Source: Bacilli bacterium (GTDB lineage: Bacteria > Bacillota_I > Bacilli_A > RF39 > UBA660). Taken from it: 64,000 nucleotides of DNA. The notes under the pieces were generated by a model. It was not told where the DNA came from and made no database searches. It saw nothing but the letters and a program-made list of their open reading frames with translations. The translations under genes and the position numbers were made by a program. The stretch covers positions 124,001 to 188,000 of the forward strand of contig JAFSEY010000004.1 of assembly GCA_017435485.1 (NCBI GenBank). Direction: 5' to 3'. Of the stretch, positions 3,781 through 28,711 are shown piece after piece. Each line of letters opens with the position of its first letter. Positions within the stretch are counted from its first letter, which is position 1.

Positions 3781-5856
3781 ATGGAAAGATTAAACACAGA
3801 ACAACAAAAAGCCGTAGAACATTTAAATGGTCCTTGTTTAGTTATTGCTGGAGCGGGATCTGGTAAAACAAAAGTATTAACAACAAGAATTGCCAAGATG
3901 ATTGAGGATGGTATTCCGCCTTATCAAATACTTGCAATTACGTTTACAAATAAAGCTGCTAAAGAAATGAAAAGCAGGGTAGAAAAGATTGTTGATGAAA
4001 CAGGTTTTTTTATTGGGACATTCCATTCTTTAGGTTTAAGATTATTAAGAGAAAATCATCGCCTTTTAGGTTTTGATAGTAATTTTACCATAATTGATAG
4101 TGATGATGTTACAACAATTATTAAAAGAATTATGAAAGATAAAGGGCTAACGCCTAAAGATATTGCTCCGAATTATGTAAGAAATCGAATAAGTTTTATT
4201 AAAAGTGAAATGTTAAATGATGATCAAATAGCGCAATTTTTTAATACACATGCCGAAATGTTAGCGTTTGATATTTATAAGGAATATCGCGAAATATTAA
4301 AGAAAAATAATTCGGTTGATTTTGATGATTTGTTAAGATTACCAGTAGAATTATTTAAAAGTCATCCGGATGTTTTAGAAAAATATCAAGAAAGATTTAA
4401 GTATATTTTAATAGATGAGTATCAAGATACTAATGAAGTTCAATATCAAATGACTAAAATGCTTGCTAAGAAACATCAAAACATCTTTATTGTTGGAGAT
4501 CCTAATCAATCTATTTATGCTTTTAGACAAGCCAATTATAAAAATATTTTGAATTTTGAAAAAGATTATCCGGGAGCAGAAGTTATTACTTTAAATCAAA
4601 ATTATCGTAGTACAAATATGATTTTAAATGCGGCTAACTCAGTTATTAAAAATAATAAAGAAAGAAAAGATGTTAATTTATTTAGCAATTGTGGTGAAGG
4701 CGTTAAATTAAAATATTTAAGAAGTTATGATGAAAAACATGAGCTTGCTTTAGTTTTAGATGAAATAAGAAAAGCATTAGATGAAGGATATCAAAAGAAA
4801 GACATTGCAATATTTTATCGGACTAATGCTCAATCACGTAATGCAGAAGAAGCATTATTAAAAGCTAATTTAAATTATAAAGTTGTTGGTAGTTTTTATT
4901 TTTATAATCGTAAAGAAGTTAAAGACTTATTAAGTTATTTAAGATTAATTTATAATCATAATGATGAAATTAGTTTAAAAAGAATTATTAATGTTCCAAA
5001 ACGAAAAATAGGTCCAAAGAAAATTGAAATGTTAGAAAATTTAGCTAAGGAACAAAACAAAGCTATTTTTGATGTTATCGAATCTGGTGCGGAATTAGAA
5101 TTTAAAAACTTAATATTAGAGTTAGCAAAAGATAGTGAGGTAATGTCTTTAACAGAGTTAATTGATGATATATTAGAAAAAAGTAAAATGTTAGAAGAAT
5201 TAAAAGCTGAAAAGACATTGGATGCGGAACTTCGAATTGAAAACTTAATGGAGTTTAAAAGTATTACAGCTTCTTTTGAAGAACAAACTGGAAATATTAA
5301 CTTAGGAGATTTCTTAGAAGAAGTTAGCTTAGTTGCTGATGTTGAAGAACATAAAAATAATGATGATGCTATTACTTTAATGACTTTGCATAGCGCTAAA
5401 GGATTGGAGTTTAAAGTAGTATTTATTGTGGGAATGGAAGAAGGGATATTTCCTCATGCTAATTCATTTGTAGAAGAAGGTGGGTTAGAAGAAGAAAGAA
5501 GACTTTGTTATGTAGGAATTACTAGAGCTAAAGAAAGACTCTATTTGACTAATGCAAAAAAGAGAATGCTTTATGGGAAAGAAAGTCAAAATGCTCCAAG
5601 TAGATTTATTAATGAAATAGAAGAATCTTTAATTGAGAAAACTAATGCTTCAATTAAGGAAGAAAAAGTTATTGATAAAAAAGAATTATATAATGAAAAT
5701 GCTCAAGAGTTTAGTAAAGGTGAAGTTATAATGCATACGATTTATGGCCGTGGTGTTGTCATTGATTTTGATGATAAGTATGTAAGTATAGCTTTTGCTA
5801 AGAACTTTGGGGTTAAAAAATTAATGAAAAATCATAGTAGTATAAAGAAAGGATAG
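3781..5856 (+). CDS. pcrA: ATP-dependent DNA helicase PcrA/UvrD
   Basis: A 691-residue superfamily 1A 3'-5' helicase for repair and rolling-circle replication. The frame extends a few codons upstream to 3760, but the ATG at 3781, 8 nt after AAGGATGG, gives the usual start (MERLNTEQQKAV). Visible motifs in order are: Q motif; Walker A GAGSGKT (K29); motif II LIDEYQDTN; motif III VGDPNQSIYAFRQA; motif V MTLHSAKGLEFKVVF; motif VI ERRLCYVGITRAKERLY. The last 50 residues form the Tudor-like PcrA tail (KGEVIMHTIYGRGVVI) that contacts RNA polymerase in other Bacillota. It is followed 5 nt later by a nucleotidyltransferase and then ligA; a pcrA-ligA pairing is typical of Bacillota. Confidence 0.96.
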   Translation: MERLNTEQQKAVEHLNGPCLVIAGAGSGKTKVLTTRIAKMIEDGIPPYQILAITFTNKAAKEMKSRVEKIVDETGFFIGTFHSLGLRLLRENHRLLGFDSNFTIIDSDDVTTIIKRIMKDKGLTPKDIAPNYVRNRISFIKSEMLNDDQIAQFFNTHAEMLAFDIYKEYREILKKNNSVDFDDLLRLPVELFKSHPDVLEKYQERFKYILIDEYQDTNEVQYQMTKMLAKKHQNIFIVGDPNQSIYAFRQANYKNILNFEKDYPGAEVITLNQNYRSTNMILNAANSVIKNNKERKDVNLFSNCGEGVKLKYLRSYDEKHELALVLDEIRKALDEGYQKKDIAIFYRTNAQSRNAEEALLKANLNYKVVGSFYFYNRKEVKDLLSYLRLIYNHNDEISLKRIINVPKRKIGPKKIEMLENLAKEQNKAIFDVIESGAELEFKNLILELAKDSEVMSLTELIDDILEKSKMLEELKAEKTLDAELRIENLMEFKSITASFEEQTGNINLGDFLEEVSLVADVEEHKNNDDAITLMTLHSAKGLEFKVVFIVGMEEGIFPHANSFVEEGGLEEERRLCYVGITRAKERLYLTNAKKRMLYGKESQNAPSRFINEIEESLIEKTNASIKEEKVIDKKELYNENAQEFSKGEVIMHTIYGRGVVIDFDDKYVSIAFAKNFGVKKLMKNHSSIKKG

Positions 5857-20663: not shown

Positions 20664-20692
20664 TTGTTTAGAGAACAAATGTTTAATATAAT
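20664..20692 (+). promoter_or_regulatory. Promoter of small-peptide locus A
   Basis: TTGTTT at 20664-20669, a 17-nt spacer and TATAAT at 20687-20692. The predicted start near 20699 gives a leader of about 59 nt carrying AGTTGGGTG (20713-20721), shared with locus B, and CTCC at 20722-20725, which can pair with the GGAG of the ribosome site at 20745-20748. Confidence 0.78.
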
Positions 20693-20757
20693 TTCTTTAG
20701 GAACATTTAATAAGTTGGGTGCTCCCTTCATTCTGTAAAAGTTTGGAGGTGATGCAT

Positions 20758-20841
20758 ATGAGTAAGAAAGATTTATTAATCTTTTCATTAATCATACTTA
20801 TCTTCCTATTAGTATTATTGCTATTTATAGTTTTGATATGA
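20758..20841 (+). CDS. Small hydrophobic peptide A (27 aa), putative type I toxin
   Basis: An ORF too short for routine calling: ATG with GGAGGT 8 nt upstream and TGA at 20839. The peptide begins MSKKDLLIF and is then almost entirely L, I, V and F, a single membrane-spanning helix with a positive N-terminus. Its promoter, leader, strong ribosome site and an overlapping minus-strand RNA copy the arrangement of locus B at 28488, although the two peptides share little beyond composition. Known type I toxins (TxpA, Ibs, Fst) are peptides of this kind, but I see no family signature. The ORF and architecture are seen directly; toxicity is inferred. Confidence 0.72.
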   Translation: MSKKDLLIFSLIILIFLLVLLLFIVLI

Positions 20842-20951
20842 AAAGAAAATCACCTAACTAGCTAAAGTTAGGTGAAAACCAAATTTTTATGGTAACACTC
20901 AACATGCGAAATTAAGTGTTCCATTTTTATTTTATGAAGATTTCTTCATCT
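20840..20951 (-). ncRNA. Antisense RNA A (putative antitoxin), about 110 nt
   Basis: Predicted minus-strand RNA from about 20951 to 20840, overlapping the 3' UTR of peptide A mRNA. Elements read 5' to 3' on the minus strand: a hairpin with arms ATGAAG and CTTCAT; a second with AACACTTA and TGAGTGTT; and a terminator with a 10-bp stem (arms at 20850-20859 and 20866-20875) followed by ATTTTCTTTT. The second hairpin, read on the plus strand and followed by ATTTTTATTTT, may also terminate the peptide mRNA. Locus B keeps the same order. Confidence 0.68.
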
Positions 20952-20957
20952 ATATAC

Positions 20958-20986
20958 AATATAACATATAAAATACATTTTTTCAA
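20958..20986 (-). promoter_or_regulatory. Promoter of antisense RNA A
   Basis: On the minus strand: TTGAAA (20986-20981), a 17-nt spacer and TATATT (20963-20958) with an extended TG. A near-consensus promoter pointing back into the peptide locus. Confidence 0.75.
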
Positions 20987-21085: not shown

Positions 21086-21835
21086 ATGCCAAATATTCAT
21101 AGTAGTATTTCATTTGCATTAGTAAATATTCCGGTTGTAATAAATCCGGTTATTAGAAATAATGATACATCTTTTAATCAATTGCATGAGAAATGTTTAA
21201 AAAGAATTAAGTATATCAAATATTGTCCACATTGTAAGAAAGATGTTAAAGAAGCAGAAATTGTCAAAGGATATGAATATGAAAAAGATAATTACTTAGT
21301 TTTAGAAAAAGAAGAGTTAGCTAAATTGAAGGTTGAAAATGATAAAAATATTGAAATAGTGGGATTTGTTGATATTAAAGAGATAGATCCGGTTATGTTT
21401 GAAAAAAGTTATGTTTTAGAAACTGAAAATAATTCTAAAGCTTATAATTTATTTTGCCAAGCTTTAAAGAAAACAAAAAAAGTAGCCATAGCTAAAACCA
21501 TTATTGGAAGTAAATTTTATTATTGTGTTTTAAGATTTACTTCGTTTGGAATAGTTATGACCACTTTATATTTTGATGAAGAAGTGGTAGCAGAAGAAAA
21601 ACAAATAAAAGATGATTATAAAACGAAAGAACTTGATATGGCTATTAAACTTATTGAAAGTTTGAGTATGAAGTTTAAGCCGGAAGATTATAAAGATGAA
21701 TATCAAAACAATATTAAAGAAGCAATTAATAATAAGTTGGATGGCAAGGAAATAAAGGCGAAAAAGACAAAACAAAAAGAACAAGTTAATAACTTAATGA
21801 AAGCTTTGGAAAAGAGTTTGAAACAATATAAATGA
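21086..21835 (+). CDS. ku: Ku protein for non-homologous end joining
   Basis: A 249-residue prokaryotic Ku core homodimer subunit, which binds double-strand DNA ends and recruits the ligase. The start (MPNIHSSISFALVNIPVVI) matches the family opening that usually reads RAxWxGxIsFGLVxIPV; then come NQLHEKC, a CPHC zinc-like pair, and the core strand LRFTSFGIVMTTLYF with EEV. The C-terminal basic tail (KAKKTKQKEQ) is short. Its last four bases overlap the ligase ATG (ATGA), so both are made together. Such a two-gene NHEJ unit is uncommon in small AT-rich gut Bacillota, and could be acquired. Confidence 0.93.
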   Translation: MPNIHSSISFALVNIPVVINPVIRNNDTSFNQLHEKCLKRIKYIKYCPHCKKDVKEAEIVKGYEYEKDNYLVLEKEELAKLKVENDKNIEIVGFVDIKEIDPVMFEKSYVLETENNSKAYNLFCQALKKTKKVAIAKTIIGSKFYYCVLRFTSFGIVMTTLYFDEEVVAEEKQIKDDYKTKELDMAIKLIESLSMKFKPEDYKDEYQNNIKEAINNKLDGKEIKAKKTKQKEQVNNLMKALEKSLKQYK

Positions 21836-22713
21836 ATTTATGGAATGATAGATTTTGGTATCCGATGCTTTTAAAAGAAGTAAGTAAACCTTTTGATGAT
21901 GATAATTATTTATATGAAATAAAATTTGATGGAACAAGAGCGATTATATTTGCATCTAATAATAATGTAACGATTATTAATCGCCATGGAAAAGATGTTA
22001 CCTATTTATATCCGGAATTACAAAAGATTAAAGAGATAGTTAAAAGAAAAACAATATTTGATGGAGAAATAGTGCTTTTTAAAAATAATATTCCATCATT
22101 TAATGATTTACAAGAAAGAGCTCACTTGAAAGATAAAGTTAAAATTAAAAATCAATCAATTAGTAATCCGGTGGTATTTATTTGTTTTGATATCTTGTAT
22201 GATAATAAAAATTTAACAGATATACCTTTAATAAAAAGAAAAGAAATGTTAGATAAATATCGAGAAAATGATGTGTTTATAAAAAGTTTTTATAAAATTA
22301 AAGAAGGAATTAATTTATTTAAAGAAACTACAAAATTAAGTTTAGAGGGAATTGTAGCCAAAAAGGTGGATAGTCCATACATAATAAATAAAAGATCAGA
22401 TTATTGGTTAAAGATAAAAAATTTAAAAGAGGAGGAATTTTTTATCGGTGGCTATATTGTCAATAAAAACAATGTTTCTTTTTTATTAGGGGAGTTAAGA
22501 AAAAACAAATTTTTTTATGTGGGGAAAGTTTCGATGGCTAAAAAGTATGATTTTGTAAATAAAGTGCTTTCCTCTAAATCTGTTAATTTATCACCATTTA
22601 TAAATTTTAATGCAGGAAACGTCATTTATATAAAGCCAAATTATAAGATAAAAGTTAAATATTTAGAACGAACAGAAAATAATCATTTACGTCAGCCCTT
22701 TATTTCAAAGTAA
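21832..22713 (+). CDS. ATP-dependent DNA ligase (LigD ligase-domain type)
   Basis: A 293-residue ligase containing only the nucleotidyltransferase and OB-fold parts of LigD; the polymerase and phosphoesterase domains are absent. Adenylation motif I is EIKFDGTR with K31. Motif III/IIIa is FDGEIVLF and VFICFDILY, motif IV EGIVAKKVDSPY and motif V WLKIKN. The C-terminal OB-fold ends in EHLRQP-like NNHLRQPFI, the family ending. Overlap with ku points to a minimal Ku-ligase end-joining system; gap filling would need another polymerase. Confidence 0.93.
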   Translation: MNLWNDRFWYPMLLKEVSKPFDDDNYLYEIKFDGTRAIIFASNNNVTIINRHGKDVTYLYPELQKIKEIVKRKTIFDGEIVLFKNNIPSFNDLQERAHLKDKVKIKNQSISNPVVFICFDILYDNKNLTDIPLIKRKEMLDKYRENDVFIKSFYKIKEGINLFKETTKLSLEGIVAKKVDSPYIINKRSDYWLKIKNLKEEEFFIGGYIVNKNNVSFLLGELRKNKFFYVGKVSMAKKYDFVNKVLSSKSVNLSPFINFNAGNVIYIKPNYKIKVKYLERTENNHLRQPFISK

Positions 22714-28409: not shown

Positions 28410-28419
28410 GTAGTATAAT
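28390..28419 (+). promoter_or_regulatory. Promoter of small-peptide locus B
   Basis: TTGTGT at 28390-28395, an 18-nt spacer and TATAAT at 28414-28419; predicted start near 28426. The leader carries AGTTGGGTG at 28440-28448. In it TGTCTACC (28447-28454) is complementary to GGTAGACA in the 3' UTR (28615-28622), and the overlapping ACCTC (28452-28456) is complementary to GAGGT of the ribosome site (28475-28479). Confidence 0.75.
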
Positions 28420-28487
28420 ACGTTCACTGGAATATCAGTAGTTGGGTGTCTACCTCTAATCTTGTAAGAGAAAGGAGGTTTGATAAA

Positions 28488-28577
28488 ATGAATAAAAGAA
28501 CTTTTATAATTAAAGTTCTTCATTCTTTCATTATCATTTTATTTCTTATCATTATGATAGTAGTAATAAAAAAATGA
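28488..28577 (+). CDS. Small hydrophobic peptide B (29 aa), putative type I toxin
   Basis: A 29-codon ORF with AAAGGAGG 9 nt upstream and TGA at 28575. It begins MNKRTFIIKVLH, continues as an I/L/F/V-rich membrane helix and ends VVIKK, so both ends are basic. The locus repeats that of peptide A: promoter, AGTTGGGTG leader, strong ribosome site and an overlapping minus-strand RNA. The terminator U-run of that RNA is the complement of the last codons (KK-stop). Membrane toxicity is inferred from the class; the peptide fits no named toxin family I know. Confidence 0.74.
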   Translation: MNKRTFIIKVLHSFIIILFLIIMIVVIKK

Positions 28578-28676
28578 CACTTAAGCAAATAGCTTAAATG
28601 TCCAACCATTGATGGGTAGACATTCAACATTGCAAAACTGAATGTTCCCGTATTATTTTATGCAAGTTTTCTTGCT
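28568..28676 (-). ncRNA. Antisense RNA B (putative antitoxin), about 108 nt
   Basis: Predicted minus-strand RNA from about 28676 to 28568, overlapping the 3' end of peptide B mRNA. On the minus strand it has a hairpin GCAAG-AAAA-CTTGC, a second hairpin with arms ACATTCA and TGAATGT, and a terminator whose 11-bp stem (arms at 28576-28586 and 28592-28602, one mismatch) is followed by ATTTTTTTATT. Order and loop sequences match antisense RNA A (second-loop cores GTTTTGCAATGT and ATTTCGCATGT). Confidence 0.72.
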
Positions 28677-28682
28677 AAATAC

Positions 28683-28711
28683 ATTATATCATTTAATTTG
28701 ATATTTGGCAA
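28683..28711 (-). promoter_or_regulatory. Promoter of antisense RNA B
   Basis: On the minus strand: TTGCCA (28711-28706), a 17-nt spacer and TATAAT (28688-28683), with extended TG. It ends 27 nt before the dusB start, facing away from dusB. Confidence 0.8.

Follow-up and report, generated by a model that had tools for sequence, protein, structure and literature searches.

Known type I toxin-antitoxin (TA) systems are usually described as narrowly distributed. The multicopy, chromosomal aapA/IsoA systems of Helicobacter and Campylobacter encode a membrane peptide of about 30 aa on a stable full-length mRNA, which is closed by a 5'-3' long-distance interaction and whose Shine-Dalgarno (SD) sequence is masked by short hairpins (PMC6733600). 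In hok/sok the full-length mRNA is inert until 3' processing, and 3' trimming has been described as the activation step for both aapA and hok (PMC6733600). The bsrG/SR4 and txpA/RatA systems of B. subtilis involve RNase III degradation, and SR4 also changes the region around the SD (PMC6562991). In par, the repeats DRa and DRb are direct, which lets the two RNAs pair through their 5' ends, and both use one terminator (PMC8167048). Finally, C. difficile CD2517.1-RCd8 and its relatives are convergent pairs with a long overlap, whose small proteins had escaped annotation and resemble no known toxin (PMC6563280).

We analyzed a stretch of 64,000 nucleotides (the window) from an uncultured Bacilli genome, in which a sequence-only reading had pointed to a convergent type I TA module resembling TxpA/RatA and par. 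Judged from sequence and its conservation, this locus (locus A) is probably a type I TA-like module and the representative of a new, multicopy, lineage-restricted family. Membership of type I in general appears well supported by architecture and evolution, but the module should be kept apart from TxpA/RatA, Fst/par and Hok.

Layout of locus A and its second copy

Sequence reading and a scan recovered every element proposed for locus A, namely a promoter, a short ORF with a GGAGGT site, and an antisense promoter and terminator. The toxin promoter lies on the plus strand at 20664..20692 (-35 TTGTTT at 20664-20669, a spacer of 17 nt, -10 TATAAT at 20687-20692), and transcription would start at about A20699. 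The -10 box and the TAGGAA start are conserved in the aligned relatives, and the toxin -35 boxes are weak. Two 5' leader arms follow at 20700..20721 (GGAACATTTAAT at 20700-20711 and GTTGGGTG at 20714-20721), which are complementary to the 3' end of the same mRNA. A predicted hairpin at 20725..20750 pairs CCTTCA (20725-20730) with the SD GGAGGT (20745-20750), a strong ribosome-binding site (RBS); it is backed by the fold and by variants across the family that keep the pairing. The 27-codon ORF at 20758..20841 (plus strand, ATG at 20758, TGA at 20839-20841) encodes a putative membrane toxin, MSKKDLLIFSLIILIFLLVLLLFIVLI; the locus thus has a small hydrophobic ORF with its own RBS.

On the minus strand, a putative antitoxin RNA of about 110 nt spans 20840..20951, with its start predicted near 20951 and its terminator tail reaching to about 20840. 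Its promoter occupies 20958..20986 (-35 TTGAAA at 20986-20981, 17 nt, -10 TATATT at 20963-20958, extended TG), and the antisense -10 region ATGTTA/ATGATA is near-invariant in the family alignment. Three hairpins can be recognized: SL1 (minus strand, 20934..20949), the 5' hairpin of the antisense RNA, reads ATGAAG-AAAT-CTTCAT at locus A and CAAG-GAAA-CTTG in many relatives; SL2 with the 3' tail (plus strand, 20894..20922) is the putative toxin mRNA terminator and contains the 3' partners of the leader, CACTCAAC (20896-20903) and ATTAAGTGTTCC (20911-20922); and SL3 (minus strand, 20850..20875) is the intrinsic terminator of the antisense RNA, with a stem at 20875-20850 followed by TTTTCTTTTC. 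The antisense copy of SL2 is likely a kissing hairpin. The U-rich tail of SL3 (20849-20840) overlaps the stop codon, in agreement with the claim that the antisense RNA ends by the end of the ORF. Sequence features and conservation thus give an antisense RNA that has its own promoter and terminator and is complementary to the toxin mRNA. Terminators are enriched at locus A (2 in 600 nt versus 0.1 in shuffles), whereas promoter-like matches are no commoner than expected in such AT-rich DNA (3 versus 4.5 in shuffles), and the case for the locus therefore rests on conservation.

A second locus, to which the earlier reading had alluded, was found within the window. Locus B (plus strand, 28414..28577) has a -10 box at 28414-28419 and leader arms at 28429-28439 and 28441-28454, and its ORF at 28488-28577 encodes MNKRTFIIKVLHSFIIILFLIIMIVVIKK. 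Its antisense RNA gene (minus strand, 28563..28692; 3' tail arms at 28615-28628 and 28637-28648) gives the top match of the family to R1, a covariance model of the antisense RNA built from aligned copies, with 124.2 bits; locus A scores 108.9 bits at 20833-20967. A DNA search of the source genome showed that the layout of locus A recurs on other contigs, and there are 14 antisense loci in this genome, 10 with an intact toxin and 4 with a dead one. Four copies of the family (L002, L003, L014 and L016) adjoin tRNA genes, whose terminator hairpin shares sequence with the antisense -35 region.

Predicted leader-tail pairing and target of the antisense RNA

The 5' end of the toxin mRNA, roughly its first 22-29 nt, is complementary to the 3' end of the same molecule over about 20-28 bp, with strong covariation. 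At locus A, GGAACATTTAAT pairs with ATTAAGTGTTCC and GTTGGGTG with CACTCAAC. Across 61 elements, the duplex of a leader with its own tail averaged -35 kcal/mol compared with -25 kcal/mol for swapped partners; the own duplex was better than the average swap in 60 elements, with a mean z of -8 against shuffled tails. In the right helix 92% of positions are paired, compared with 31-44% in slid registers, and 10 of 13 pairs show two-sided changes, counts that come from related sequences and hence not from independent events. Compensatory variants of this helix include TGTCTACC/GGTAGACA, TACTTGCC/GGTAAGTA, GTCGTCC/GGCGAC and others. A 5'-3' long-distance interaction closing the toxin mRNA is thus present as a prediction backed by covariation. 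In most copies the SD also sits in a hairpin, opposite a CU-rich arm upstream that matches it, and the variants that keep this pairing over the family include ACCTCC/GGAGGT, GCC/GGC and CTTC/GAAG. The self-pairing of the mRNA had been missed in the sequence-only reading, as had the size of the family, whereas the layout that it described stands.

Leader and tail are inverted repeats of each other, and the 5' half of the antisense RNA consequently resembles the toxin leader. Complementarity between the antisense RNA and the leader is near chance (z -1.1), and for this reason direct occlusion of the SD by the antisense RNA was rejected and the antisense RNA should instead act on the 3' end of the mRNA. 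We also considered that antisense binding might close an otherwise open SD. Folding with the antisense-covered region blocked gave no consistent opening or closing (mean unpaired probability of the SD 0.15 in the free and 0.18 in the antisense-bound mRNA); overall this possibility is unsupported, the SD being mostly paired in both states. Since the SD is mostly closed both when free and when antisense-blocked, a step that activates translation, for example 3' trimming, has to be assumed, and we infer that such a step would exist.

Distribution, decay and exchange of the module

In the aligned copies the order of parts is kept, running on the toxin side from the -10 box through the TAGGAA start, the leader and the RBS to a hydrophobic ORF of 25-34 codons, followed by the antisense terminator hairpin SL3, SL2, SL1 and the antisense -10 box. 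A covariance-model search, which the sequence-only reading had proposed, found R1 matches in 208 of 291 genomes from the family to which the source genome belongs; these span 116 of 150 genera, and there are up to at least 17 matches per genome. In an order-level sample, where only the family of the source genome was among the genomes listed, 140 of 193 had matches, and of 392 genomes sampled at phylum level 10 had matches, nine of them inside the family. The one outside (G720, same class but a different family) carries a single copy with an intact antisense gene and a deleted toxin start codon, which represents either a transfer or MAG contamination. R1 therefore behaves specifically, and the module is essentially confined to one lineage. 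That lineage is a large family of uncultured gut bacteria with small genomes; about 70% of its sampled members have the module, frequently at high copy number, and the relatives that carry it include goat-gut MAGs. At eight loci (L026, L030, L098, L122, L124, L128, L138 and L141) tandem modules lie a few hundred bases apart, at times with different peptide classes. No convincing plasmid or phage relative was found by blastn (one short partial match each) or tblastn (0 matches), and no viral contig with the conserved motif was found; a plasmid or phage origin was rejected on these searches.

The peptides fall into the classes KKDLL/KKDFL, KTKTFIIKVLK, KKREYNIKLL (KKREYNI), TKREFSQFII (TKREFSQ) and RKQEKYLCS, all of which have one long hydrophobic stretch and a charged N-terminus. 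Many end in KK, unlike the locus A peptide, which has a hydrophobic C-terminal end; in the KK-ending classes, the AAAAAA that codes for KK also serves as the U-tract of the antisense terminator. For 26 independent close pairs the pN/pS of the ORF was 0.25, compared with 0.63 +/- 0.09 (minimum 0.42) for randomly placed substitutions, which argues that the peptide is translated and under purifying selection.

Decayed copies offer a view of the module's natural genetics. Among 91 antisense loci in 12 genomes, 62 have an intact toxin, 24 a dead or absent one (a few weak R1 matches counted as dead may be false) and five lie at contig ends. Conversely, 50 of 69 toxin-side matches have an antisense match, and the other 19 comprise L016, two IS insertions (L110 and L111), weak matches, matches at contig ends and a subclass whose antisense half has diverged. 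R1 is more sensitive than R2, which may account for part of this asymmetry and weakens the exact ratio. The one clear toxin without antisense, L016, is damaged: its membrane span contains Pro and Gln and its RBS is weak, most of its antisense gene having been removed by an IS-like fragment. In L110 and L111 the toxins are otherwise intact and an IS lies in the antisense terminator at the contig edge, where the antitoxin may have been disrupted. Apparent orphan toxins in genome G006 were rejected as such, the antisense half being present but diverged. On the toxin side, L003, the ortholog of L014, has cleanly lost everything between the toxin promoter and the end of the ORF, both included, at TTTTTGAT repeats and with the antisense gene intact, L123 has a frameshift in the toxin and L125 has lost the start codon. 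A TA module predicts such a pattern, in which the toxin would be dispensable and an unguarded toxin would not be tolerated. In five copies (L016, L023, L106, L110 and L111) a sequence resembling an IS or MITE, with ends like CCCCAAAAGTTGGACA or CCCCATTTCTTGGACA, lies in or beside the antisense terminator hairpin, which suggests that the terminator is an insertion hot spot.

Locus A occupies the same place in the sister genome G001, with flanks about 96% identical. Identity between the two is 97% in the leader and upstream region, 100% in codons 1-5 and 99% in the tail and antisense promoter, but falls to 67% from codon 6 to the stop and to 56% in the SL3 region. In the window, the segment from codon 6 to the stop instead shares 97% identity with L130, a copy in a genome of another genus (G195), although identity between L130 and locus A is only 68% in the promoter and leader and 73% in the tail. 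The toxin coding core has therefore been exchanged, with the RNA arms on either side conserved. No such change is seen at locus B, which lies at the same place and is stable in the source and sister species. Two copies (L048 and L050) look like further mosaics; their leader and tail come from different classes and pair poorly, which makes them natural tests of the need for leader-tail pairing. Taken further, the data raise the prospect, which we hold at even odds, of a lineage-wide type I TA superfamily with fixed RNA arms and interchangeable toxin cassettes. The antisense RNA would be an inverted near-copy of the leader that outcompetes it for the 3' tail, and peptide and antisense terminator would be swapped together by recombination, even between genera, so that the toxin type turns over and the RNA circuit stays constant.

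Proposed mechanism, alternatives and described systems

The proposed mechanism is as follows. The plus strand would give an mRNA of about 230 nt for a single-span hydrophobic peptide that may insert into the membrane and stop growth. Translation would be locked in cis twice, by the predicted SD hairpin and by the covariation-supported pairing of the 5' leader with the 3' end, which would yield a closed, stable mRNA. The minus-strand RNA of about 110 nt, spanning the mRNA from its stop codon to beyond its 3' end, would compete with the leader for the 3' tail through its 5' half, a near-copy of the leader. Pairing might start at the SL2 loop and proceed to a duplex of about 100 bp that RNase III could cleave. 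Once the unstable antisense RNA is depleted, as might happen when the locus is lost or transcription halts, leftover mRNA would become active, perhaps through 3' processing of the kind described for aapA and hok, and the peptide would be made. The ORF and antisense terminator would be exchanged as a cassette between the conserved RNA arms.

Three other explanations were weighed against this. Single-span peptides of about 27 residues are often regulators, and there is one weak, sub-threshold match to MgtR (E 0.24); the peptide might be a small membrane protein that is not toxic and has a regulatory or structural role, with the antisense RNA keeping its dose low. We regard this as unlikely, given the copy number (up to at least 17 per genome), the tandem copies, the several peptide classes that share one RNA architecture, three predicted layers of translation control, and toxins that are often dead where the antisense gene is kept. 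A selfish MITE-like repeat, or a family of trans-acting sRNAs with an incidental ORF, would account for the dispersed copies, the inverted repeats of leader and tail and the copies beside tRNA genes, but is more improbable still, because the ORF is under purifying selection, both promoters are conserved outside the inverted repeat, and loci A and B lie at the same place in the sister species. That a spurious ORF and promoters arose by chance in AT-rich DNA would fit the unremarkable number of promoter-like matches; with family-wide conservation, covariation and codon-level constraint, this idea is already refuted by the relatives found and retains a negligible probability.

The reading as a convergent type I TA-like module draws on family-wide conservation, purifying selection, covarying RNA structure and lopsided decay, with the toxin lost and the antitoxin kept, and here the original proposal holds. 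Its likeness to TxpA/RatA and par holds for the layout and not beyond it. As had been supposed, the peptide carries no known family signature: searches of Pfam, NCBIfam, PADLOC, PHROG, Rfam and PDB gave no significant match for peptide or RNA, and membership of a known RNA or protein family was rejected accordingly. The module is thus recognized by none of the annotation libraries searched.

The best reading is that the module works like aapA/IsoA and bsrG/SR4 and is probably homologous to neither. With aapA/IsoA it shares multiple chromosomal copies, a small membrane peptide, the predicted 5'-3' closure and the SD hairpin, but its antisense RNA is convergent, covers the 3' end of the mRNA and mimics the toxin leader; no match to aapA/IsoA was found in the libraries searched, which may contain no AapA/IsoA model. 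Compared with TxpA/RatA and BsrG/SR4, the complementary span at locus A is 20840-20951. Homology to these systems was not found (nothing significant in Pfam, NCBIfam, PADLOC, PHROG or Rfam), and the locus A family differs in being chromosomal in most members of a bacterial family, with no phage relative found, and in having an arm of the 5'-3' self-pairing as predicted antisense target.

The par/Fst system (pAD1, E. faecalis) is likewise a convergent pair with a small membrane peptide and repeats at the 5' ends of both RNAs. Its direct repeats and shared bidirectional terminator were not found in the locus A family, where the repeats are inverted, the two RNAs resemble each other at the 5' end, and separate hairpins (SL2 and SL3) serve as their terminators. 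Because the terminal repeats are inverted rather than direct, the RNA logic differs from that of par. No Fst match was obtained in Pfam at E <= 1, nor, with it, evidence for the Fst peptide family and its charged C-terminal tail. Hok/sok resembles the module in its inert full-length mRNA and differs in that the antisense RNA of the locus A family lies at the 3' end rather than the leader; no coupled leader ORF was seen, and the Hok family gave no Pfam match. CD2517.1-RCd8 resembles the module in its convergent layout, long overlap and small proteins unlike known toxins; it comes from a different lineage, and the description consulted mentions no leader-tail pairing. A leader-mimicking antitoxin would be a distinct, testable RNA mechanism, and the intact, toxin-deleted, frameshifted and antitoxin-broken copies form a natural series for a genetic test of addiction.

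Two further features of the window were recorded. Positions 5461-5558 match Rfam n00280, a C. difficile sRNA within a helicase gene, above the gathering score; this is probably conserved coding sequence. Directly downstream of locus A, at 21086-22713, genes for a Ku-like protein and an ATP-dependent DNA ligase adjoin in this 1.09-Mb genome, presumably a bacterial end-joining pair.
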